24,631 nucleotides of DNA from a virus, in IMG/VR virus record IMGVR_UViG_3300005338_000031, positions 1 through 24,631 of that record; one strand, given 5' to 3'. Made by a program: the position numbers and the translations under genes. Positions 2,609 through 18,616 of the stretch are shown piece by piece. Each line of letters starts with the position of its first letter. Within the stretch, counting starts at the first letter, position 1. The notes under the pieces are model-generated. The model made no database searches and had not been told where the DNA came from. It worked only from the letters and a program-made list of their open reading frames with translations.

Positions 2609-2770
2609 ATGAGTCTGTTACTGTCTATCTTCTTGAAACCGTTTATTGCCGTGCTGGTGCTTGTACCCGTGCGTCTGTTGGTGTGGTGGATAGGTGCTAG
2701 GATGCCAGACAGCAAGCTCAAACGCCTGCTATTCTCACCGTTGCCCGGCCAGAGCCGCCGCAGGTACTGA
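2609..2770 (+). CDS. Antisense micro-gene: single-span membrane protein (53 aa)
   Basis: A 53-codon plus-strand ORF in the 152-bp gap between two minus-strand late genes; its last 36 bases overlap the 3' end of the gp16-like gene. The product starts MSLLLSIFLKPFIAVLVL, then VPVRLLVWWIG, giving one strong transmembrane helix at about residues 3-29. A basic tail follows with MPDSKLKRLLF and RRRY. A Shine-Dalgarno AAGG sits 7 bases before the ATG. The composition is that of a real small membrane protein, while the opposite strand in this gap reads as unlike protein. The MPDxKLKRLL style recalls small membrane proteins near podovirus ejection genes, but this is from memory and unverified. Possible roles are an accessory lysis or ejection-related protein. 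No promoter was identified. Confidence 0.55.
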   Translation: MSLLLSIFLKPFIAVLVLVPVRLLVWWIGARMPDSKLKRLLFSPLPGQSRRRY

Positions 2771-4681
2771 TTGCTTGAGCGCCTGCTCAAGATACGGCAG
2801 AGCCGCCTGCACTTCCTTGGGCAGACTCTGTGCCCCGCCAGATCTCGCCGCTTGCATGACTGCCTGCGCTTTCGCGGGGTTCATCACCAGATCAGCCAAC
2901 GTCGCTTGAATCTTTGGTTCGGCCACTCCGTTGTATGCGAACTGCACAGGCCGCATGACGGTATTGAGCAGCGTGCTTTCTGCCCATGATTCAGGCAAAC
3001 CAGTCGGGCCAAGAACTTGGCGCAGAACGTTCTGTGATGCCATGCGCTGAGCCGTTGCGCTGCCTGGACCATTCGCTGCGCGCCCCACGGCTGCGAGCTT
3101 GTCAGTCTCGCCCACCACACCGCGCAGCTTCGCAAGCTGGTCAGGGTCCAGCAAGTCAGCCAGCGTCTTCTGAGGCAAGTCACGACCAGTCGCTTGGCTG
3201 ATCAACTTGCCTTCATCCTTCACTGCACGACCCAGAGCATCAGGCATCAATCGTGTGGTGCCCGACAGATCAGCAGTGGCGCTGCTGCCCTTCTTCAGCA
3301 ACTCGCCTGCCACATCCATCTGATTGAGTGGCTCGCTCATGGCTGCGTGAGTGAGGCGTGCTTCTTTGTACGCAGGCGACATGCTCTCGAGCAGGTCAAC
3401 CAACTTGCTCTGGGCCGTCTTGATGGACATAGCCTTGTTCACTTGGCTGGCTGTGCCGTTGCTCAGCGCAGCGATCTGGTCGTCCATCGCCAGCTTCATC
3501 AGGTGCAAGCCTTCCACGCTACCCTCAGGGGACGCAATGTTCAGCCCCTTGTTCGCTGCGGTTTCCTTGGCAGCAGCGACAGCGTCTCGAACCGCTGGGG
3601 CCTGAAGCAACTTGGCGATCTGTGTCTGCTGAGCAGCGGTGGGGGTGAGCTGTGATCCGAACGCCTTGCCGTACAGCTCCTGCGACGTGGCGCTGCGTGC
3701 AGCACCCGCGAAGTCCCGGGCACCATCCTTGCCAGCCAGTTCAGTCAGCGTGCCCACCCGTGCGGCGTTGTTCTCCATCTCACGCGCTGCCAGCTTGGCT
3801 GCGATCTCTGGGTCCAACGTGCGCAGAGAGTCCTGCAAACGAGCTGCTGCCGCAGCACCCTCAGGCCGGGCAATCTGCTCTGCCATCGTCGTGCGGGCAC
3901 CCGTGACAGTGGGGTTGCTTGAGAGGCCAGCTACGTCACCCGCCTCTACGCCAAAACGCTGCAAGGTGCGCGCAGCAATGGCATCCCTACCACCAGCAGT
4001 AAACGGCTCTACCAACGATTTAACACCCTTGGCTCCGGCAGCAAGACCTCGGCCTGCCAGCGCACCAGCAGGCGCAGACAGGCCACCAATCACGGTATTC
4101 TTCAGACGTGACTCACCGTCTGCCACTGGTTCGATGAAACCTTGCCCAGCACCAACTGCGCCAGCGCCCAGAAGGGTCTGCGACCCAGGGATGGCCACCG
4201 TAGGCAGTGCGAGTGCAACCTTTCCACCGATGTTGCCCACAGTACCAGCCGTGGTGTTCACCAACGGCTTGTCCATCTTCCTGGACTCGTTGATATCTGC
4301 TTGCGTTGCTGCTGCGCTGTCGCGAGCAGTTGGCATGCCCAGCTTCTTGCTCAATGCGTCAGCACCAGGAACGACACTTTCCAACGCGACGGCTGGCTTG
4401 TCCAGGAGCTGTTTGATGCCACGACCTACATCAGCGAATGCCTTGCCAGCACCAGCACCGAACCGCTCACCAGTGCTCATGCCGCGAGTAGGATCATATT
4501 CGCCCATGTACTCGTCTGGTTTAGCCTTGTGGGTCATCTCTGATGCCAGCTTGTCACGACGCGCTTGGTTCGCTTGCTCCTGCTGCAAGATCTTGAGTCC
4601 AGGCGTAGACAGCTTGGTCAGGTCACCTGACTGCAACGCAGTCAGATCATCGGTACTGAACTGTTTCAGGTCGAGAGCCAT
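2735..4681 (-). CDS. Ejection (internal virion) protein, P22 gp16-like position (648 aa)
   Basis: A large Ala-rich protein, the third of a set of three that follows the P22 order gp7-gp20-gp16; P22 gp16 is 609 aa. Such proteins are packaged inside the capsid and are ejected to help DNA cross the cell envelope. Residues 1-40 contain DDLTALQSGDLTKLST, similar to N-terminal modules of other phage internal proteins. Residues 145-182 are Gly/Ala-rich and hydrophobic (KVALALPTVAIPG, then LLGAGAVGAG), a possible membrane-inserting stretch. The remainder is predicted mostly helical. No lysozyme or transglycosylase motif was seen. The start at 4681 lies 8 bases below the stop of the upstream ejection gene. 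Function rests mainly on order, size and composition. Confidence 0.75.
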   Translation of the reverse strand: MALDLKQFSTDDLTALQSGDLTKLSTPGLKILQQEQANQARRDKLASEMTHKAKPDEYMGEYDPTRGMSTGERFGAGAGKAFADVGRGIKQLLDKPAVALESVVPGADALSKKLGMPTARDSAAATQADINESRKMDKPLVNTTAGTVGNIGGKVALALPTVAIPGSQTLLGAGAVGAGQGFIEPVADGESRLKNTVIGGLSAPAGALAGRGLAAGAKGVKSLVEPFTAGGRDAIAARTLQRFGVEAGDVAGLSSNPTVTGARTTMAEQIARPEGAAAAARLQDSLRTLDPEIAAKLAAREMENNAARVGTLTELAGKDGARDFAGAARSATSQELYGKAFGSQLTPTAAQQTQIAKLLQAPAVRDAVAAAKETAANKGLNIASPEGSVEGLHLMKLAMDDQIAALSNGTASQVNKAMSIKTAQSKLVDLLESMSPAYKEARLTHAAMSEPLNQMDVAGELLKKGSSATADLSGTTRLMPDALGRAVKDEGKLISQATGRDLPQKTLADLLDPDQLAKLRGVVGETDKLAAVGRAANGPGSATAQRMASQNVLRQVLGPTGLPESWAESTLLNTVMRPVQFAYNGVAEPKIQATLADLVMNPAKAQAVMQAARSGGAQSLPKEVQAALPYLEQALKQSVPAAALAGQR

Positions 4682-4689
4682 TGTTCACC

Positions 4690-6075
4690 TCACTTCTGTT
4701 TACGACGAGCCAACTCTGCGTTGATGGTGTCCAGATCGAACCCGCCTTTGGGCGCTGGGGCACCGCCTGACACATCCATGCCGGGCTGCAATGAATTTCG
4801 TTGGTCTTGAGGCACAGCCAACAGCATGCCATTCATGGCCAACTGCCTGTTCTTCGCCTTCTGCGAGATCACAGCGTCGCTATCACCAGACTGGACGAAG
4901 TACTGTTTGCGAGCGCTATCAAACTCGGTCGGGGAGATAGACGCCCCAGACTCACGACGTAACACAGCGTTGATGAAGTCACGCTGGGCTTGGTCCACCT
5001 GCTGTTGCTGAGGCGTAGCCATCGCCGTTGCTGCTGAGCCAGTAATGCCCTGCCCGCCCGTGAGTTGTTGCGGCAGTGACAGAGACGAAACACCTTGACC
5101 AGCGAGCTCATTGATGATCTTGTCTGCTTCACGCATACGACTACCGAACAACAGCGCGTTGGACTGCTCTTGGTTCAGCGTCTTTTGCGGCTTGATCGGG
5201 TTGCCCTGCTGGTCAGTGACCGGGCGCACTTGGCCGGTAGCCTTGTTGCCCACGAACAGACCCACACCGTCTACGGGGACGAAGCTGTTCTGCCCTTGAG
5301 CTTGGTCGAAGGCCAGACGCTTGCTTGCGATGGCGTTGGAAGCAGACTCACCAGGAGTCATGGTCTTGCGAGCTACTGGTGCGCCAGCAGTAACCTCACC
5401 TGTTAGCTGGTTTGTCTGGAACGGTACCAACGCGCTGCCTGTGTCCTTGATGTCTGTCTTCGGAATCATCATCTCCATACGCTTGCTGGCGTCCATGGCC
5501 TGCAAACCGTGCTGGATCAAGAAAGTCCGAAGCGCAGCGGGATTGTCGGGCGGGGGCAGCGAGCGTGCAATCTGTGCGCCTTGTTCTTGTGGCATAATCC
5601 CTTGTTGTACGAGGTTGGTCAACGTGTTGATGACCATGTCGTTGTTCACCCCTGGGTTTGACAGCAACGAATTGATCGCACCGCTGGCAGTGTCCAGCTT
5701 GCTCTTCAACGTTTTGAACTTCTCTGCGTCTGTCTGAGCTTGCACGTGGCCCACATCGGCAGCTGCTTTGTCTGCATCTGCCCAGCCCTTTTGCAGCGCA
5801 GGAATCTTTGCACCAAGACCGCGCTGTGCAGCTTGAGTCGTGAGCTGGCTACGGTTCACAGAACCATCAGGGTTGACTGAAGACCTGTACAAGTCACTGA
5901 GAGTGCGTTGGTTATCAGCTTCTTCTGTAGCTTGCTGAATATTCAGTTGTTGTAACTGTTGCTGACCAAGCAAACTCTTCAACTGCATCTGCTTGGTCTG
6001 CGCCTCTAGGGGATCAGCCAGCTGAACAGCCGGACGGCCAACGTTCTGGTAGATGCTTGCGTCGATCTGTGCCAT
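4690..6075 (-). CDS. Ejection (internal virion) protein, P22 gp20-like position (461 aa)
   Basis: A Gln/Ala-rich helical protein, 461 aa against 471 aa for P22 gp20, located between the gp7-like and gp16-like genes. It probably sits in the virion and leaves with the DNA. Residues 20-60 are strongly Gln-rich (QMQLKSLLGQQQLQQLNI), which suggests a coiled coil. The region around residues 375-400 (QAQRDFINAVLRRESGASI) resembles a motif common in podovirus internal virion proteins. The reading frame extends upstream, but the ATG at 6075 was chosen because AAGGAG lies 8 bases before it and upstream residues overlap the previous gene. The gap to the upstream stop is 13 bases. Assignment is by context and sequence style. 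Confidence 0.75.
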   Translation of the reverse strand: MAQIDASIYQNVGRPAVQLADPLEAQTKQMQLKSLLGQQQLQQLNIQQATEEADNQRTLSDLYRSSVNPDGSVNRSQLTTQAAQRGLGAKIPALQKGWADADKAAADVGHVQAQTDAEKFKTLKSKLDTASGAINSLLSNPGVNNDMVINTLTNLVQQGIMPQEQGAQIARSLPPPDNPAALRTFLIQHGLQAMDASKRMEMMIPKTDIKDTGSALVPFQTNQLTGEVTAGAPVARKTMTPGESASNAIASKRLAFDQAQGQNSFVPVDGVGLFVGNKATGQVRPVTDQQGNPIKPQKTLNQEQSNALLFGSRMREADKIINELAGQGVSSLSLPQQLTGGQGITGSAATAMATPQQQQVDQAQRDFINAVLRRESGASISPTEFDSARKQYFVQSGDSDAVISQKAKNRQLAMNGMLLAVPQDQRNSLQPGMDVSGGAPAPKGGFDLDTINAELARRKQK

Positions 6076-6088
6076 GAGTGTGCTCCTT

Positions 6089-6853
6089 TCAGCCGTAGAT
6101 GGCGTCACCGCCACCGTACGAGTTGCCATCCCACATCGTGCCGCCGCCGCCACTCACCGGCTGAGTTGTGTTCGTCGGCTGAGTTGTGTTCGTCGGCTGA
6201 GGCTGCTGGTATCGGCTTTGCATATACCAGTTGCCCAGCGTATTCAGTCCGCTTTGAACGTTGTTGCCTTGTGCGATGCTGCCTGCTGCCTGCGCATTGC
6301 CCACACCGATCTGATTGCCCGCAATGCTGGACGCCGCCCATAACCCTTGGTTCGCCACGTCGCGAGTAGCGGTCTGCCCGATGCCAGCGATAGACGACAA
6401 ACGGTTGAACCGTTGTGTGCGGTCGGCGTTGAAACGATTGTATGCGTTCTGGTATTCGCCGCTTGCAAAGTTCTGTCCGTACCGTTCTGACCCCTTGATG
6501 GCGGCACCACTGAGCGCGCCCCCGCGTGCCGCTGCACTCGAGTCCACCGCACGCTGGCCTTCCTGCATACGAAAGTCGTAACCGGGGTCCTTGGTGAAGT
6601 CGTCCAACGTGAAATCACTATTGAACTCGCCTCCAGGTTGTGTGCCAGTCGTGAGTTGACCCAGCGCAGTTTCACCAGCGGCTCGCCACGGGGCTTGATC
6701 CACGCGAGTCTGGTTGAACTGATCTAGTTGCGTCTGATTGGCTTGATTTGCTGCATCTGTTTGAGCATTCGAAGCTTTACGAGCAGAATCCGCAGATACA
6801 GCAGTACCTACGGCTGCGACAGCTACGGCTGCGGCACCCCATCCTTCAAACAT
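6089..6853 (-). CDS. DNA transfer/ejection protein, P22 gp7-like position (254 aa)
   Basis: First of the three predicted ejection proteins; P22 gp7 is 229 aa. Residues 5-22 are a hydrophobic Ala/Val segment (AAAVAVAAVGTAVSA). Residues 86-160 carry a block recognisable from many podovirus DNA-transfer proteins: FTKDPGYDFRMQEG, AAARGGALSG, then NFASGEYQNAYNRF and LSSIAGIGQTA. The C-terminus is low complexity, with a perfectly duplicated PTNTTQ hexapeptide from an 18-bp tandem repeat, then Gly-rich sequence. The first 8 bases overlap the end of the oxygenase-like gene, and AAGGA precedes the ATG, so translation is probably coupled. Family recognition is fairly strong; the role inside the virion is inferred. 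Confidence 0.82.
   Translation of the reverse strand: MFEGWGAAAVAVAAVGTAVSADSARKASNAQTDAANQANQTQLDQFNQTRVDQAPWRAAGETALGQLTTGTQPGGEFNSDFTLDDFTKDPGYDFRMQEGQRAVDSSAAARGGALSGAAIKGSERYGQNFASGEYQNAYNRFNADRTQRFNRLSSIAGIGQTATRDVANQGLWAASSIAGNQIGVGNAQAAGSIAQGNNVQSGLNTLGNWYMQSRYQQPQPTNTTQPTNTTQPVSGGGGTMWDGNSYGGGDAIYG
6159..6201 (-). repeat. 18-bp tandem repeat inside the gp7-like gene
   Basis: Two exact copies of an 18-bp unit (6159-6176 and 6177-6194) are followed by 7 matching bases. On the coding strand each unit encodes PTNTTQ. Exact copies suggest recent slippage-type expansion in a linker before the Gly-rich C-terminus. Confidence 0.9.
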
Positions 6854-7463
6854 AATCGTGTCCTTCCATATAAAAGTGGCAACCCCAGATCATGCGGCCA
6901 TCTTCGACGCCGTGACCGAATCCGGTGTACGGATAGCGACAATGAAACACAGGTGATGGGAAGATCACGGCACGGTTGTACTTGCCTTCCACCATGTTGA
7001 TCTTCTCCCAGACCTCAGGATCACGATGGCTGCAATCAGCTTTCATTCGGGCAAAGTTCTCTTGATCCGCGTAGAACTTTGCCAGCGGAGGAAGAGCGTA
7101 GGTGTTCGTAGGTTTGTGTCGGTAGAACTCTGTGCCGTTGTTCTCGTGCTTGCTCATGTACAGGATGCACGTGAGGTCACCAGTGAATATGTCACTATGC
7201 ACCACGGCTTCTTCAGTGTCCTCAGTTGTGAGTCGGAAGAAGAACTTATTCGGGTATATGGGTCTGCGGAATTGCTTTGCCAGCGCCCGGACTCCAGTAC
7301 CGTGGTTGCCGTAGAAATTCACACCCTCGAACTGATCAGGCCCAATTGCGCCCTTGTTCGGCTTCCAGGTACCAAATCCTGAAGAAATGGCACTATGACG
7401 CATGACGTCAGGGTCTGCCAAGAAATCGTCGATGACCAGGATGTCGTACTTGCTACCAATCAT
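6846..7463 (-). CDS. DUF6445-like / 2-oxoglutarate-Fe(II) oxygenase-like protein (205 aa)
   Basis: A predicted enzyme inside the tail/ejection cassette. The pattern fits the double-stranded beta-helix Fe(II)/2OG dioxygenase fold, most like DUF6445. The start resembles that family (YDILVIDDFLADPDVMR). His89-x-Asp91 (VVHSD) gives two metal ligands, and NNGTEFYRH follows near residue 108. NRAVIFPSPVFH then brings the distal His174, and GRMIWGCHFY gives Arg190 as a candidate 2OG-binding residue. The substrate could be a virion protein, a host protein or a small molecule; nothing here decides it. The frame opens upstream at a TTG, but the ATG at 7463 was chosen because AAAGG sits 7 bases before it. 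The last 8 bases overlap the gp7-like gene. The assignment is by motif only. Confidence 0.7.
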   Translation of the reverse strand: MIGSKYDILVIDDFLADPDVMRHSAISSGFGTWKPNKGAIGPDQFEGVNFYGNHGTGVRALAKQFRRPIYPNKFFFRLTTEDTEEAVVHSDIFTGDLTCILYMSKHENNGTEFYRHKPTNTYALPPLAKFYADQENFARMKADCSHRDPEVWEKINMVEGKYNRAVIFPSPVFHCRYPYTGFGHGVEDGRMIWGCHFYMEGHDYV

Positions 7464-7474
7464 GTTGATGCCTT

Positions 7475-8026
7475 TTACCAAGCTGGAATGTACCGTGTGG
7501 TGCCATTATCGTTGACAGGGATCCATTTCGTGGGGTTGCCTGCTGTGGGCGCATTCAAAAGAGTTCCAGCTGCTGCCGCAGCACCATTCGTGAACGCTAC
7601 TGAGGTGCGAATCAATGTGTTGCTTGCAACGCTCAACGCACCAGCAACTTCTAACTTGTATGGGCCGGTAGGTGTGATACCAACGCCGATGTTGCCGCCG
7701 AAAGGTTGAAGAACCAAATCGCGTGCAGCCACAGTAGTGTCGAAACCTTGGATGACAGGCAAGTCAGCTGCAATGTAACCCACACCAAGCTTCACAGCAG
7801 GATTGGCAAGCTGCCAGACAAAGTTCGGGCGAGTACCAACAGCTGTTGTGTTGAAGTCAGCTACTGCGGCCACCACGCCACCGCCGTTGGATTGCAGCAA
7901 CGCGGAGGCACCAGTGAACGTGTCGCCAGCCTTGTTGGCTGGCGTGTAGCCCAGCGCCTGGATGATGTAGGCAGCGCCCTGAGCGATCAGATTCGCCAGA
8001 ATGCCACGTGCTTCGTCAATGTGCAT
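7475..8026 (-). CDS. Tail-fibre-like structural protein (183 aa)
   Basis: A short fibre-like protein. Residues 24-40 (ALGYTPANKAGDTFTGA) match the LGYTPxNKAGDxFTG element found in many phage tail-fibre shafts. The middle (GNIGVGITPTGPYKLEVAG, about residues 131-150) resembles the knob-like beta modules of fibre proteins. The C-terminus ends PTKWIPVNDNGTTRYIPAW, a closing motif of small phage structural proteins. There is no chaperone or peptidase domain. The start codon overlaps the upstream stop as TGATG, indicating coupled translation. It may form a side fibre or a spike-attachment part. The structural role is well supported in general, but the exact location in the virion is unknown. Confidence 0.75.
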   Translation of the reverse strand: MHIDEARGILANLIAQGAAYIIQALGYTPANKAGDTFTGASALLQSNGGGVVAAVADFNTTAVGTRPNFVWQLANPAVKLGVGYIAADLPVIQGFDTTVAARDLVLQPFGGNIGVGITPTGPYKLEVAGALSVASNTLIRTSVAFTNGAAAAAGTLLNAPTAGNPTKWIPVNDNGTTRYIPAW

Positions 8027-8361
8027 CAGGACACCTCACGACCGCTGGCGCGGATGGTGACTGCGTTGTTCACGCTGTCATTGGTGTTGATGAAATCGCC
8101 AGCGTTGAGCACATGGCCCACAATCTCCGGGAATGTGTACGACTCGCCAGCAGCCAGCGTCTTCTGCACAATCTGATTGGCAGCGCCAGCAGCGCCACCA
8201 CTGTTGACCAAGTTCACTGTGAGCGTGGCCGGAGCGCCCGTGGTGTTGGTGCCGGTGAATTTGTCAAGGATGGTACGAGTGGATGCAGGCGCGGTGTACT
8301 GCGTGGTGTTGGCGTTGACCGCCTGGATCGACGGGATGATTGCTTTTGCGGTGACAGCCAT
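8026..8361 (-). CDS. Conserved small virion-associated protein (111 aa)
   Basis: An Asn/Thr/Ala-rich beta-type protein without Cys. The segments STRTILDKFTGTNTTG and TFPEIVGHVLNAGDFI resemble a family of small phage proteins found near head-tail or tail genes. No catalytic motif or signal peptide was seen. GGAG sits 6 bases before the ATG. The stop overlaps the start of the fibre-like gene by one base, and the gap to the upstream gene is 10 bases. It is probably structural, for instance a tail or fibre accessory part. The gene is well supported, but its function is not recognised. Confidence 0.7.
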   Translation of the reverse strand: MAVTAKAIIPSIQAVNANTTQYTAPASTRTILDKFTGTNTTGAPATLTVNLVNSGGAAGAANQIVQKTLAAGESYTFPEIVGHVLNAGDFINTNDSVNNAVTIRASGREVS

Positions 8362-14692: not shown

Positions 14693-16872
14693 ACTTGTTC
14701 TCCTTGTTCGCCACCTTCAGGCAGCATGGATTGTTGAGGCGCCTGCGGTTCCTCCACGCTCGGCTGAGTGTCATTCTCACCAGTCGTCAGAGCCTTTGCA
14801 GTGAGCACAGGCGGGGGCTGTAGCTTCTGGATCATCAGCTGAATCCACCCTTGCAGCTCGGCCACGTCTGCCTTGCTCACAGCGTTGATCTCGGCCACCT
14901 CCTTGCGGCTGGCTGCGTCGATCTTGGCCTTCTCGATGCCGTTGGTGGCTTCCTGCAGTTGCTGGCTGAGCTGCTGCATCTGCTGGTCCATCTGCTCGAG
15001 CATGGTGCCGACCTGCTCCTTGGGGATGGGTCCCTTAGGTGTCTGCACCATGTTGTCGTCGACCTCTTCGGCACCGTCTTCGCCCTTGCGCAACGCGGGG
15101 TCGATGGTCTTCTCGACACGGTCAGCAATCTGGTCGGCCATTGGCCAGTCCATGGAACGGATGACCTTGTCACCGGCGACATCCATGAGCTTGGGCCAGT
15201 TCTGCGCCGTCTGGAGCAGGCCTTCGACTGCCTCTTGGCGCAGCGTGTCGTAGCTTGGACCGACGCTGATGGTGACCGCGTAGTCACCCACGGTCATGTC
15301 ATTCATGACAGTCTCGACTGCCTCAGGGATGCCGCCTTCTTGCGGCACCTGCTTGACCTCAGGCTTGTTGATGTCGACTGAGCTGACCTTGCCGTCCTCG
15401 CCCATGATCTGCAGCGTGCGGGTGCCGTCGTACACCTTGGGCCACATATCAACGATGCAGCGCCCGGCATGGCGCAGCGTGGTGTTGAGGTTGTCCGTGT
15501 AGTGGAAGTTGGCGGTCTCACCTTGACGATCGCGTGCGTTGATGGCCTTACCGCTGGTCTCGTTGGAGCGCGCACCGAGTGACGCATCGAAGATGCCAGT
15601 GGTGGCCTTCAAGTCATCACTTGCGTGCGAAGCCATCGTGAGGTAGCCAGCAGGCACGTCGGCCGGAGCTTGGCGCTGCGGCGGAGGAGCCAGCTGTCCA
15701 CCGAGGCTCTTGAGCTTGTACTCGAGGTACGGGAAGTTACGCGCGTTGGCCACGTTCCACTTGGACTCGTGCCCTTCGAACTGGCCCTCAGCACCGATGT
15801 ACGGAGCCTTGGAGCGCAGGCCGATCTCTTCCGTGGCGCTGGTCACCCAGAAGTTGTACATGCGAGCAGGGTCCTTCGCGTTACGGATGAGCCCGCTACG
15901 GTACACCTTGCCATCCATGTCGATCTCGTCACCCAGCACGGGGAACACGGGAATCCATTGACACGGGATCTCAGCGCGCTCGAGCACCTGCACTGCGTTG
16001 AGCTTGAACCACTGCACGGTCTTGCGCTGGCTCTTGCGCTCCTTCACCACGGTCACGCCTTCAGGCAGCTCCAGCAGCTTGTCCTTCCAACCGCTCTCAC
16101 CGTTGCTGAGCAGCACCGCAGTGGCGTTCTCGTAGTGCATGCGGTAGTACTCAGCTGTGCGCAGCTCATCCTTCATGATCCACTCGTTGGTGCGGTCGCC
16201 CATGCCACGCACCACGTTCCAGTCGCAGGGGTCTGCGTCTGGGTACTGAAGGCGGAACTCGCTGCGCGGTTGCTTGGTGCTCAGGATGCACCACTGCTGG
16301 TCTGAACCATCCACCTCGATGATGGAGGGGTCCATGTACACGGTGAACGGGTTGCGGATGCGCTGGAACGCGATCTCCTGGTCGAAGGACGAGGGGCTGA
16401 CGTACTTCGTCACGAGGCGGAAGTACCCGATGCCAATGGCAGCCGCGCTGTTCACAGCGGTGTCATAGCACACGTCGGCCTTGGACTTGTACTCGATATG
16501 GCGAATGCCGCCCTGCACCACCTCGGCCACCTTCTGGTCTGCCCCTTCGCTGACCGGATGTACCTTGATGCTGGGCACGTTCTGACGCTGGCTGTTCGTG
16601 ACCTGATGCAGACTGACAGGCAGCTTGTTGATGGTGAGGCACGGACGACCATCCATCGTACGGGCCTGCTTGACCCGCTCATCCCACTGGTCACCCTTCA
16701 GGAAGGCAAGGTCGTCCAGAGCGTTGGTGCGGTTCTCGCTGTCCGCCGCCATGCTGATGGCCATGCGCTCGATGCACTCGGCAATGATGGCTGCGTCGTC
16801 ACTGGTCTTGGCCTGTTCGCCTTCCTCCAGCTTGTTGCCAGCCATCGCGGACTCAGGGGTAGTACTCGTCAT
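14689..16872 (-). CDS. Portal protein, P22 gp1-like (727 aa)
   Basis: Predicted dodecameric portal through which DNA is packaged and ejected. The length of 727 aa is nearly that of P22 gp1 (725). Typical N-terminal elements are FLKGDQW at 57-63, RPCLTINKLP at 76-85 and NSQRQNVPSIKV at 93-104. AAAIGIGYFRL and FQRIRNPFTVYMDPS follow. The central region has KATTGIFDASLGARSNETSG, a recognisable portal motif. Residues from about 615 to 685 are Gln-rich helix (LEQMDQQMQQLSQQLQEA), matching the barrel part of P22-type portals, followed by a disordered tail. Start and stop both overlap neighbours as ATGA. Confidence 0.93.
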   Translation of the reverse strand: MTSTTPESAMAGNKLEEGEQAKTSDDAAIIAECIERMAISMAADSENRTNALDDLAFLKGDQWDERVKQARTMDGRPCLTINKLPVSLHQVTNSQRQNVPSIKVHPVSEGADQKVAEVVQGGIRHIEYKSKADVCYDTAVNSAAAIGIGYFRLVTKYVSPSSFDQEIAFQRIRNPFTVYMDPSIIEVDGSDQQWCILSTKQPRSEFRLQYPDADPCDWNVVRGMGDRTNEWIMKDELRTAEYYRMHYENATAVLLSNGESGWKDKLLELPEGVTVVKERKSQRKTVQWFKLNAVQVLERAEIPCQWIPVFPVLGDEIDMDGKVYRSGLIRNAKDPARMYNFWVTSATEEIGLRSKAPYIGAEGQFEGHESKWNVANARNFPYLEYKLKSLGGQLAPPPQRQAPADVPAGYLTMASHASDDLKATTGIFDASLGARSNETSGKAINARDRQGETANFHYTDNLNTTLRHAGRCIVDMWPKVYDGTRTLQIMGEDGKVSSVDINKPEVKQVPQEGGIPEAVETVMNDMTVGDYAVTISVGPSYDTLRQEAVEGLLQTAQNWPKLMDVAGDKVIRSMDWPMADQIADRVEKTIDPALRKGEDGAEEVDDNMVQTPKGPIPKEQVGTMLEQMDQQMQQLSQQLQEATNGIEKAKIDAASRKEVAEINAVSKADVAELQGWIQLMIQKLQPPPVLTAKALTTGENDTQPSVEEPQAPQQSMLPEGGEQGEQV

Positions 16873-17258
16873 GTCTTGCTCCGTTGAAGGGCTTCGTTGA
16901 TTGGGTTGAGACTGAGCAGCCGTGGTGTTGCGCCCGGCATGCGCGCCATGAGATAGGGGTCAGGCTGAATGCACTGAAAGCCGAAGCGTTCTTGGTACCA
17001 CTCGATGAGCTGCGCAGTGCTGAGGCCAGCGCTCTCACCGAAGGCCATGGGCCAGAGCACCAGCACGATGTTCTCGTTGTCTGCCTCACGGCACACCTTG
17101 TGCATCAACGTGGTGGCGTAGCCCTTGTTCTGCTCCGCTGCTGGCACCAGCAAACTGGTCACTTCACGCACACGACCCCGCATGCGCTCGGGCACTGCGT
17201 TGGTTTGACGTACGCGCAGCTTGGCGGGTCCAACGATTCTGTAACCTGTTTCCATCAT
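16869..17258 (-). CDS. GNAT-family N-acetyltransferase-like protein (129 aa)
   Basis: A small putative acetyltransferase placed between terL and portal. The core motif A is visible: VTSLLVPAAEQNKGYATTLM at residues 33-52, with Q-N-K-G-Y-A (43-48) as the acetyl-CoA pyrophosphate-binding loop. A later WYQERFGF (87-94) matches the usual C-terminal GNAT helix and strand. The substrate is unknown. The frame opens at a TTG, but the ATG at 17258 overlaps the terL stop as ATGA and has GGGAG 9 bases upstream. A second ATG at 17255 is also possible. Its stop overlaps the portal start. A virion-protein-modifying or host-directed role is only inference. Confidence 0.75.
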   Translation of the reverse strand: MMETGYRIVGPAKLRVRQTNAVPERMRGRVREVTSLLVPAAEQNKGYATTLMHKVCREADNENIVLVLWPMAFGESAGLSTAQLIEWYQERFGFQCIQPDPYLMARMPGATPRLLSLNPINEALQRSKT

Positions 17259-18616
17259 GTCATCCAACTCCCAGAAGAGTGCCCGTACTGTAGGGTCTCA
17301 TTGTCCTCGGCTCTCTTCTTGATGGCTTGCTCTTCCAGGGCCACTATGCCAATGCGGAAACCATCTGCTGCGTGCGAAGCCCAGTCGTGCATGGGGCCGA
17401 GGCTCACACCACGCTTGTCATCCACCTTCTCATGGTACTGCTTGAGGGCGTCACGGCCCACCTCTGTCTTCGTGCGGTCGAACCAGCAGCGGTTGAGCAC
17501 CATGCGCACCGCGTCGATGCCATCCTTCACAGGGATGTTGGGAGCCACCTCGAAGTTGATGCCAAGGCTACCAGCAGTCTCGATGCGGCTGCGACCTGTA
17601 CCCAGCTCCCGAACCATGATGTCGTGAGGCCCGACGTGCTTCCCGTAGACGTAGCCCTTGTCCTGAAGCACCTGAGCGTAATGGTCGAGCCCGTAGCCTG
17701 CTGCCTCGTAGTAGTCGATGACCCGGATCTCACGGCCCACCAGCTGGATGAACCAGATGACCATGTTGTCGCTGATACCCAGATCCCACCACGTGTGCAC
17801 CTTCGCGCTCTTGTCGTATGGCACACCAGTGATGCGCCCATCGAACTCAGCGTTCTCCAGCTCCTTCGCGTAGTACGCGCCTGTGATAGCTGCGTCGAAG
17901 CTGCACTCGAACTCCTGCAGGTACTCGTTATCCGGCATATTGCGACGGAGACGGTCCAGCTCGGCCTGAGGAATGAGTCCTGTCTGGCTGGCCTTGAGCA
18001 TCTGAACGAACCACTCAGGCGCGAGCCCGAGCCGCTCCTGCACCTCGTTGTCCTTCAGAGCACGCTTGTACGACTGGCCCAGTAGGTTGCCCCAGCCCTT
18101 CGGCGTGCCGCTGAGATCGAGCCAGCCTTCGCGGTCAGCCAGAGCAGGCAGGATGACGCTCGTGAGCGCGCTCGGTGCGATGTCCTGTGCTTCGTCCGCT
18201 GCCAGACCATCGAAATACAGACCCCGCATACGCTCGATGTTCTCAGCACCGTATAGTCGGATGACCGCGTTGTTGTGCGGCATGCGGATGGACAGCTCGG
18301 ACTCGTTGGGCTTCTTGTTCGTCTGGAACGGCCCTTCCAGCTGGATGATCGGGCTGGAGTAGTGCTTTAGGTAGTTCCACGCGATGTCCTTGGCCTGCAC
18401 GAAGTACGGAGCGAGGTAGCCGAAGCGCGGGTCAGGCTTCTCGCACAGAGCCGCCTTACGGATCAGCTTGTTGATGCGCGCCACGGTCTTGCCTGCACGA
18501 CGGTGCGCCACGCTGATAGTGAAACGCTCCTGGGCCTTGTGGTACGGCAAGAACGCGCTGCGTGGCGTGTAAGGGATGGTCACCACACGCTCGCTTTGGG
18601 TCGCGGGCGTCTTCAT
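17255..18616 (-). CDS. terL: Terminase large subunit (453 aa)
   Basis: DNA-packaging motor with ATPase and nuclease parts. The ATPase has a Walker A-like loop AHRRAGKT at residues 37-44, as in P22-type terminases. Its Walker B is LAADEAQDI with Asp141-Glu142, and the coupling motif LSGTPKG is at 168-174. The C-terminal nuclease shows acidic residues in HTWWDLGISD, in VGPHDIM and in HDWASHAADGFR, matching the RNase H-like metal site. At 453 aa it is slightly shorter than P22 gp2 (499). The start overlaps the 46-aa gene stop as ATGA and the stop overlaps the GNAT gene. Identity is secure from the motifs. Confidence 0.95.
   Translation of the reverse strand: MKTPATQSERVVTIPYTPRSAFLPYHKAQERFTISVAHRRAGKTVARINKLIRKAALCEKPDPRFGYLAPYFVQAKDIAWNYLKHYSSPIIQLEGPFQTNKKPNESELSIRMPHNNAVIRLYGAENIERMRGLYFDGLAADEAQDIAPSALTSVILPALADREGWLDLSGTPKGWGNLLGQSYKRALKDNEVQERLGLAPEWFVQMLKASQTGLIPQAELDRLRRNMPDNEYLQEFECSFDAAITGAYYAKELENAEFDGRITGVPYDKSAKVHTWWDLGISDNMVIWFIQLVGREIRVIDYYEAAGYGLDHYAQVLQDKGYVYGKHVGPHDIMVRELGTGRSRIETAGSLGINFEVAPNIPVKDGIDAVRMVLNRCWFDRTKTEVGRDALKQYHEKVDDKRGVSLGPMHDWASHAADGFRIGIVALEEQAIKKRAEDNETLQYGHSSGSWMT

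Follow-up and report, generated by a model that had tools for sequence, protein, structure and literature searches.

A predicted DUF6445 iron/2-oxoglutarate oxygenase and its pairing with an N-terminal Glu-x-Trp tag on a gp7-like ejection protein of podoviruses

The window and its P22-type block

The window, the whole stretch of DNA analysed here, covers the full length of an IMG/VR virus record, 24,631 bases. It contains a P22-type block on the minus strand, running from terL through a GNAT gene, portal, scaffold, coat, adaptor, Hc3 and small virion-type genes to the oxygenase gene, gp7-, gp20- and gp16-like genes, and the tail spike gene. The portal matched P22_portal (E=1.1e-177), which, together with the synteny with Rhodoferax phage P26218, confirmed the P22-type morphogenesis block proposed in the first-pass annotation. 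The close relatives are P26218 and the uncultured phage ctpVu19, whose coat proteins are 87-88% identical to that of the window. The GNAT acetyltransferase-like gene between portal and terL (16869-17267, minus strand; Acetyltransf_1, 23.7 bits with a cut-off of 20.7) is also kept in both relatives. The features around the oxygenase gene are listed below; numbers with the prefix L denote the loci compared.

7475-8026, minus: fibre-like gene upstream of the oxygenase gene, 183 aa; 60% identity to the fibre-like protein of L001 over the C-terminal 57 aa; position as P26218 gp30
6846-7463, minus: DUF6445 gene for a predicted Fe(II)/2-oxoglutarate (2OG) oxygenase, 205 aa, ATG at 7463 and stop ending at 6846; PF20043 match and predicted fold
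7197-7199, minus: His89 codon, predicted Fe ligand (HxD); invariant in 72 relatives
7191-7193, minus: Asp91 codon, predicted Fe ligand (HxD); 99% of 72 relatives, 53/53 in the subclass
6942-6944, minus: His174 codon, predicted distal Fe ligand; invariant, opens model strand 174-177
6894-6896, minus: Arg190 codon, predicted 2OG-binding residue; invariant, opens model strand 190-199
6846-6853, minus: 8-base overlap ATGTTTGA between the end of the oxygenase frame and the beginning of the gp7-like frame; recurs in many relatives, e.g. L091, L093, L095 and L098
6089-6853, minus: gp7-like ejection protein of 254 aa, proposed as partner or substrate of the oxygenase; phrog_598 'DNA ejection' (2.1e-44) and homology with P26218 and ctpVu19
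6839-6853, minus: MFEGW, the E-x-W tag at the gp7 N-terminus; such a tag is present at 52/52 subclass loci with the enzyme and at 0/29 gp7 loci without it
4690-6075, minus: gp20-like ejection gene, taken to start at an internal ATG; 47-48% identity to the syntenic P26218 and ctpVu19 genes, named by gene order
2735-4681, minus: gp16-like ejection gene; 60% identity to the syntenic P26218 and ctpVu19 genes, named by gene order

The ATG of the oxygenase gene is preceded, at a distance of 7 nt, by the plausible ribosome-binding site AAAAGG; an alternative in-frame TTG start at 7481 is possible. As had been read from the sequence earlier, the gene lies between fibre-like and gp7-like ejection genes and overlaps the latter by exactly 8 bases. 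The upstream gene is fibre-like by its position and C-terminal motif; its product matched no Pfam or NCBIfam family, and its place is occupied in P26218 by gp30, annotated as 'similar to putative tail fiber protein'. The oxygenase gene is missing from P26218, where gp7 is directly abutted by the fibre gene. The P26218 and ctpVu19 records were not among the DUF6445 matches in the phage collection, and since both lack the gene, it is accessory in the phage group of the window. The gene is under purifying selection, because its differences from the 80%-identical L001 gene are distributed 28/17/119 over the codon positions (dN 0.13, dS saturated).

Comparison of window positions 7475-8361 with L001:6855-7916 revealed a common fibre C-terminus (57 aa, 60% identity) and a common 111-aa protein (59%) in swapped order, despite portal and coat proteins that are just 25-30% identical between the two; a host-range module may travel with the oxygenase. 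A short direct repeat at about 6160-6205 encodes PTNTTQPTNTTQ close to the gp7 C-terminus.

Family, active-site residues and predicted fold of the oxygenase

The assignment to DUF6445, made earlier from the residue pattern, was borne out by a Pfam profile match (PF20043; E=6.1e-14, 52.9 bits) above the curated cut-off of 24. PF20043 is a family of unknown function; the window protein is a member, keeps its HxD...H...R pattern and also falls under phrog_1644, 'minor coat protein'. The H-x-D, distal His and downstream Arg are H89, D91, H174 and R190 in the numbering from the ATG, as the first-pass annotation stated. In an alignment of 72 members of the family, conservation was 100% for H89, H174 and R190 and 99% for D91 (once N), and all four were intact in 53/53 members of the window's own subclass. 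The protein therefore has the residue set of the superfamily, an HxD...H iron triad followed by a 2OG-binding Arg.

An AlphaFold2 model computed from 50 aligned DUF6445 family members was confident (pLDDT 91.4, pTM 0.88). H174 and R190 open two late strands of the model (174-177 and 190-199), a placement of the distal His and Arg that is typical of the 2OG oxygenase fold. Rather than a fold without the double-stranded beta-helix, the model had 2OG oxygenases as its best matches among solved structures in the PDB (Foldseek E 7e-5). In the VIA structure rows, PHD2 led and other protein prolyl hydroxylases appeared at Z 12.3-13.3; small-molecule enzymes such as SnoN were level with them. The prolyl hydroxylases concerned (PHD2/EGLN1, the Pseudomonas putida P4H with EF-Tu, OGFOD1 and PBCV-1 vCPH) resemble the predicted fold over most of the chain and have the same kind of Fe/2OG residue set; however, they are 8-18% identical to the window protein in structural alignments, and they act on Pro, whereas the gp7 tag described below has no conserved Pro. 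A PDB sequence search with the single oxygenase protein gave a chance match only (lysozyme, E=0.69), a PDB profile search with the oxygenase profile gave no match, and an NCBIfam search of the protein gave no family. The gene is thus predicted to encode an iron/2-oxoglutarate oxygenase: the complete conserved residue set and the confident model argue for the Fe(II)/2OG type suggested earlier, and 'active' stays a prediction.

Cyanophage DUF6445 members share the predicted active-site residues of the window protein, and no E-x-W tag lay downstream in the cyanophage DUF6445 loci tested. Unlike other DUF6445 proteins, the podoviral subclass has its own conserved N-terminal segment, GFGTWxPN..., and is linked to gp7 with its tag. 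At L032, L043, L054 and L076, the DUF6445 protein is extended at its N-terminus by ~100 aa; the extension of L032 had no Pfam match.

Conserved position and pairing with a gp7 tag

Enzyme-driven searches of 2.9 million viral contigs found two podoviral sets, a subclass 38-80% identical to the window oxygenase and a second group at about 27-31%. Where the sequence downstream could be read, almost every podoviral contig had a gp7/gp14-like gene either next to the oxygenase gene on its downstream side or one gene further on; the exceptions were L116 and L113, the latter placed among replication-type genes. The genes upstream of the oxygenase were variable (fibre, holin-like, Hc3 and lysis genes). 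Because the upstream neighbour varies and the downstream gp7 is constant, fibre linkage was dropped as the main signal. The downstream neighbours matched phrog_598 'DNA ejection' in L091, L093, L099 and L102, and that of L101 gave a weak T7_gp14 match below the cut-off; several others were recognised as gp7-like solely by an Ala/Gly-rich N-terminus and gene order. Extra ORFs between the enzyme and gp7 in L238, L248, L256 and L262 have an HNH-like look; a Pfam scan of the L256 ORF gave no match, and these ORFs were not given a name. Genome contigs searched with the podoviral oxygenase alignment yielded no relatives, and tblastn with two subclass members against 50,697 cultured-phage records found just distant cyanophage or marine DUF6445 proteins.

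T7 (gp13, PF11090) and P22 (gp14, DUF2824) likewise have a small gene immediately ahead of a gp14 or gp7 ejection gene, and the GNAT protein ORF39 of Pseudomonas phage vB_PaeM-G11 is encoded in the corresponding slot (PMC10142737). These three belong to unrelated sequence families, and none is an oxygenase.

The subclass comprised 55 loci, 3 of which were truncated; each of the other 52 (52/52) had a gp7-like frame in which E-[I/V/G/A]-W stands at the start or close to it. The final tag filter sets E and W by construction, so that the meaningful comparison is between 52/52 and the controls under the same filter, which gave 0/29 at enzyme-less gp7 loci, 0/15 at second-group and related DUF6445 loci and 0/40 at other DUF6445 loci. 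E3 and W5 were present in all 43 non-redundant gp7 N-termini and are the sole invariant residues of the tag; the later positions vary. The tag has the shape x-E-[I/V/G/A]-W followed by a Gly/Ala/Val-rich stretch, as in the tagged peptides MFEGWGAAAVAVAA and AEIWGAAIVAGG; an untagged counterpart is MSGVATAIVG. Some subclass gp7 frames have an N-terminal extension or start at CTG, ATA or ATC, without ATG, GTG or TTG. In L248, L264, L266, L256, L238 and L244, the conserved gp7 N-terminus is reached solely from CTG, ATA or ATC, suggesting that non-canonical start codons may be used there.

Searches driven by the tag agreed with those driven by the enzyme. The DNA pattern for MAEIWGAA occurred in 18 viral contigs, one of them in an unrelated short ORF, and DUF6445 was upstream of 17/17 genuine viral MAEIWGAA gp7 genes, immediately so in 16; the 17th locus, L180, is truncated, and L278, taken from the same contig, supplies the missing part and also has DUF6445 upstream. 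The tag-driven and enzyme-driven contig sets overlap, and the two counts are not independent samples. Scanning about 85,000 genomes for MAEIWGAA gave 13 hits, 12 of which were rejected as unrelated reading frames; the one real gp7 belongs to a Luteimonas cucumeris prophage, with DUF6445 upstream. Conversely, among 28 relatives of the window gp7 (37-66% identity), DUF6445 was present in 0/28 fetched stretches, and the E-x-W tag was absent in 27/27 with a readable N-terminal region. This near-perfect pairing of oxygenase and gp7 tag is new here; no prior description was found in the portions of the open-licence PMC literature consulted.

The window gp7 combines a body of the enzyme-less type with an N-terminus of the enzyme-bearing type. 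Residues 26-254 are identical to P26218 at 130/222 positions (59%) and to the enzyme-bearing, distant L091 at 51/188, whereas the first 8 residues are identical to L091 at 8/8 and to P26218 at 3/7 positions. A gp7-body tree with the first ~25 residues removed, a quick tree with some long branches, placed the window inside the enzyme-less clade (SH-aLRT 92-94). Given an L091-like N-terminus on a P26218-like body, the oxygenase and the tag would most simply have come into the window phage together. On the gp7 tree, the enzyme-bearing gp7s were largely clustered (3 changes), and the loci are therefore not independent.

Possible action on the gp7 N-terminus and alternative explanations

Podoviral DNA passes into the cell through a conduit built of ejection proteins. 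We propose that the oxygenase is a non-haem Fe(II)/2OG enzyme that would be made with the late virion proteins and would serve exclusively the ejection protein of the next gene downstream. It would recognise the gp7 N-terminus, that is, the tag and the following, probably membrane-active, Gly/Ala/Val-rich stretch, and would oxidise a residue in or beside the tag ahead of gp7 packaging; the oxidation would change the hold of gp7 in the capsid or its insertion into the host envelope. Catalysis, the tag as its substrate, the atom oxidised and the effect on ejection are all parts that we infer. We give an even chance to the core of this proposal, that a phage enzyme modifies the gp7 N-terminus before packaging and so alters the phage's own ejection machinery. 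The 'virion or host component' named as the substrate in the first-pass annotation would then be narrowed, by inference from gene order and the tag, to the N-terminus of the adjacent gp7.

The gp7 N-terminus is a known and tolerant processing site, because in P22 the host protease OpdA removes the first 20 residues of gp7, and deleting these largely dispensable residues has little effect (PMC8402733). Proteins of the gp7/gp14 type have been proposed to form the outer-membrane part of this conduit (PMC8954989). Modification is also favoured by the protein-acting SET and GNAT enzymes that sometimes share the oxygenase slot: three unrelated kinds of modifying enzyme in one slot would be expected if the protein encoded there is modified. 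Several points argue against the tag as a substrate: the gp7 proteins of relatives work without the oxygenase, a second DUF6445 group occupies the same slot with the tag missing, P22 gp7 tolerates loss of its N-terminal 20 residues, the tree clustering makes the paired loci non-independent, and the protein-hydroxylase matches in the VIA comparison are tied with small-molecule enzymes. In addition, since the reading frames overlap, the linkage to gp7 and its tag could have been carried together by recombination.

A SET methyltransferase domain was found at three subclass loci, fused to the oxygenase in one (L098:5001-6035) and adjoining it in two (L094:4396-4758 and L272:2944-3320). In the second DUF6445 group, a GNAT acetyltransferase gene lies between the oxygenase gene and gp7, and the gp7-like proteins (L103, L104, L106, L107, L112 and L114, few loci) start with M[A/G]x[I/V]T, not E-x-W.

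More tentatively, an oxidised Glu3, Trp5 or neighbouring residue may be a new post-translational modification on an ejection protein, and oxygenase, SET and GNAT enzymes may be interchangeable next to podoviral ejection genes as a maturation step of the DNA-injection machine. DUF6445 was not mentioned in the open-licence PMC literature. In the parts of that literature consulted, keyword searches gave no description of phage virion-protein hydroxylation, and no report of enzymatic maturation of podoviral ejection proteins was found apart from the host-protease trimming of P22 gp7. A short peptide tag that accompanies an oxygenase across different phages offers a concrete prediction that is cheap to test; it could give a DUF family a function and bring to light a phage maturation step that requires oxygen.

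The main rival to the substrate model, which we consider unlikely, is that the tag binds the oxygenase without being its substrate, so that the enzyme is packaged with gp7 and ejected to act on a host protein or metabolite, or serves mainly as a gp7 chaperone. The pairing data suit binding, with or without packaging, as well as they suit catalysis on the tag, and we know of no 2OG enzyme that hydroxylates protein Glu or Trp. Moreover, gp7-like proteins are ejected (PMC8402733). However, a pure chaperone would not require invariant H89, D91, H174 and R190, and 'minor coat protein' is, for the oxygenase, a PHROG/RefSeq label only.

It is quite unlikely, in our assessment, that the oxygenase acts on another substrate (the fibre, or another virion or host protein) and that the 5' end of gp7 simply moves along with it through the gene overlap. 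In overlapping cases, the 8-bp overlap fixes GA as the first two bases of gp7 codon 3; the tag is clustered on the gp7 tree; and the fibre C-terminus and 111-aa protein are common to the window and L001, so a larger segment may have moved. Such co-transfer could account for the single event in the window. It explains less well that E3 and W5 are universal (43/43 non-redundant N-termini), although the next positions vary, on gp7 bodies too diverged for good alignment. Furthermore, W5 lies outside the 8-bp overlap, and the tag is kept where the genes are separated by gaps of 1 to 20 bp and even across an intervening gene or several hundred bases (L238, L244, L248, L255, L256, L262 and L272).

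It is highly improbable that the enzyme merely occupies a late accessory-gene slot and serves host takeover, DNA repair or 2OG metabolism as an auxiliary 2OG oxygenase, given that podoviral relatives repeatedly have it immediately ahead of gp7/gp14-like genes and that the tag pairing is exclusive, although L113 lies elsewhere and T4-like cyanophages encode several 2OG-Fe(II) oxygenases per genome, for which roles in DNA repair or 2OG metabolism have been proposed (PMC3037559). The cyanophage oxygenases are located in myoviral variable regions without a gp7 partner, some of them beside tail-fibre genes, as in Synechococcus phage ACG-2014j. In that phage, the 'minor coat protein' (L005:8007-8756) is a DUF6445 protein and the 'DNA endonuclease V' (L005:5898-6473) has a weak resemblance to 2OG oxygenases, below the Pfam cut-off; the RefSeq/PHROG names of these genes therefore look wrong, and we rejected both functions as inherited labels.
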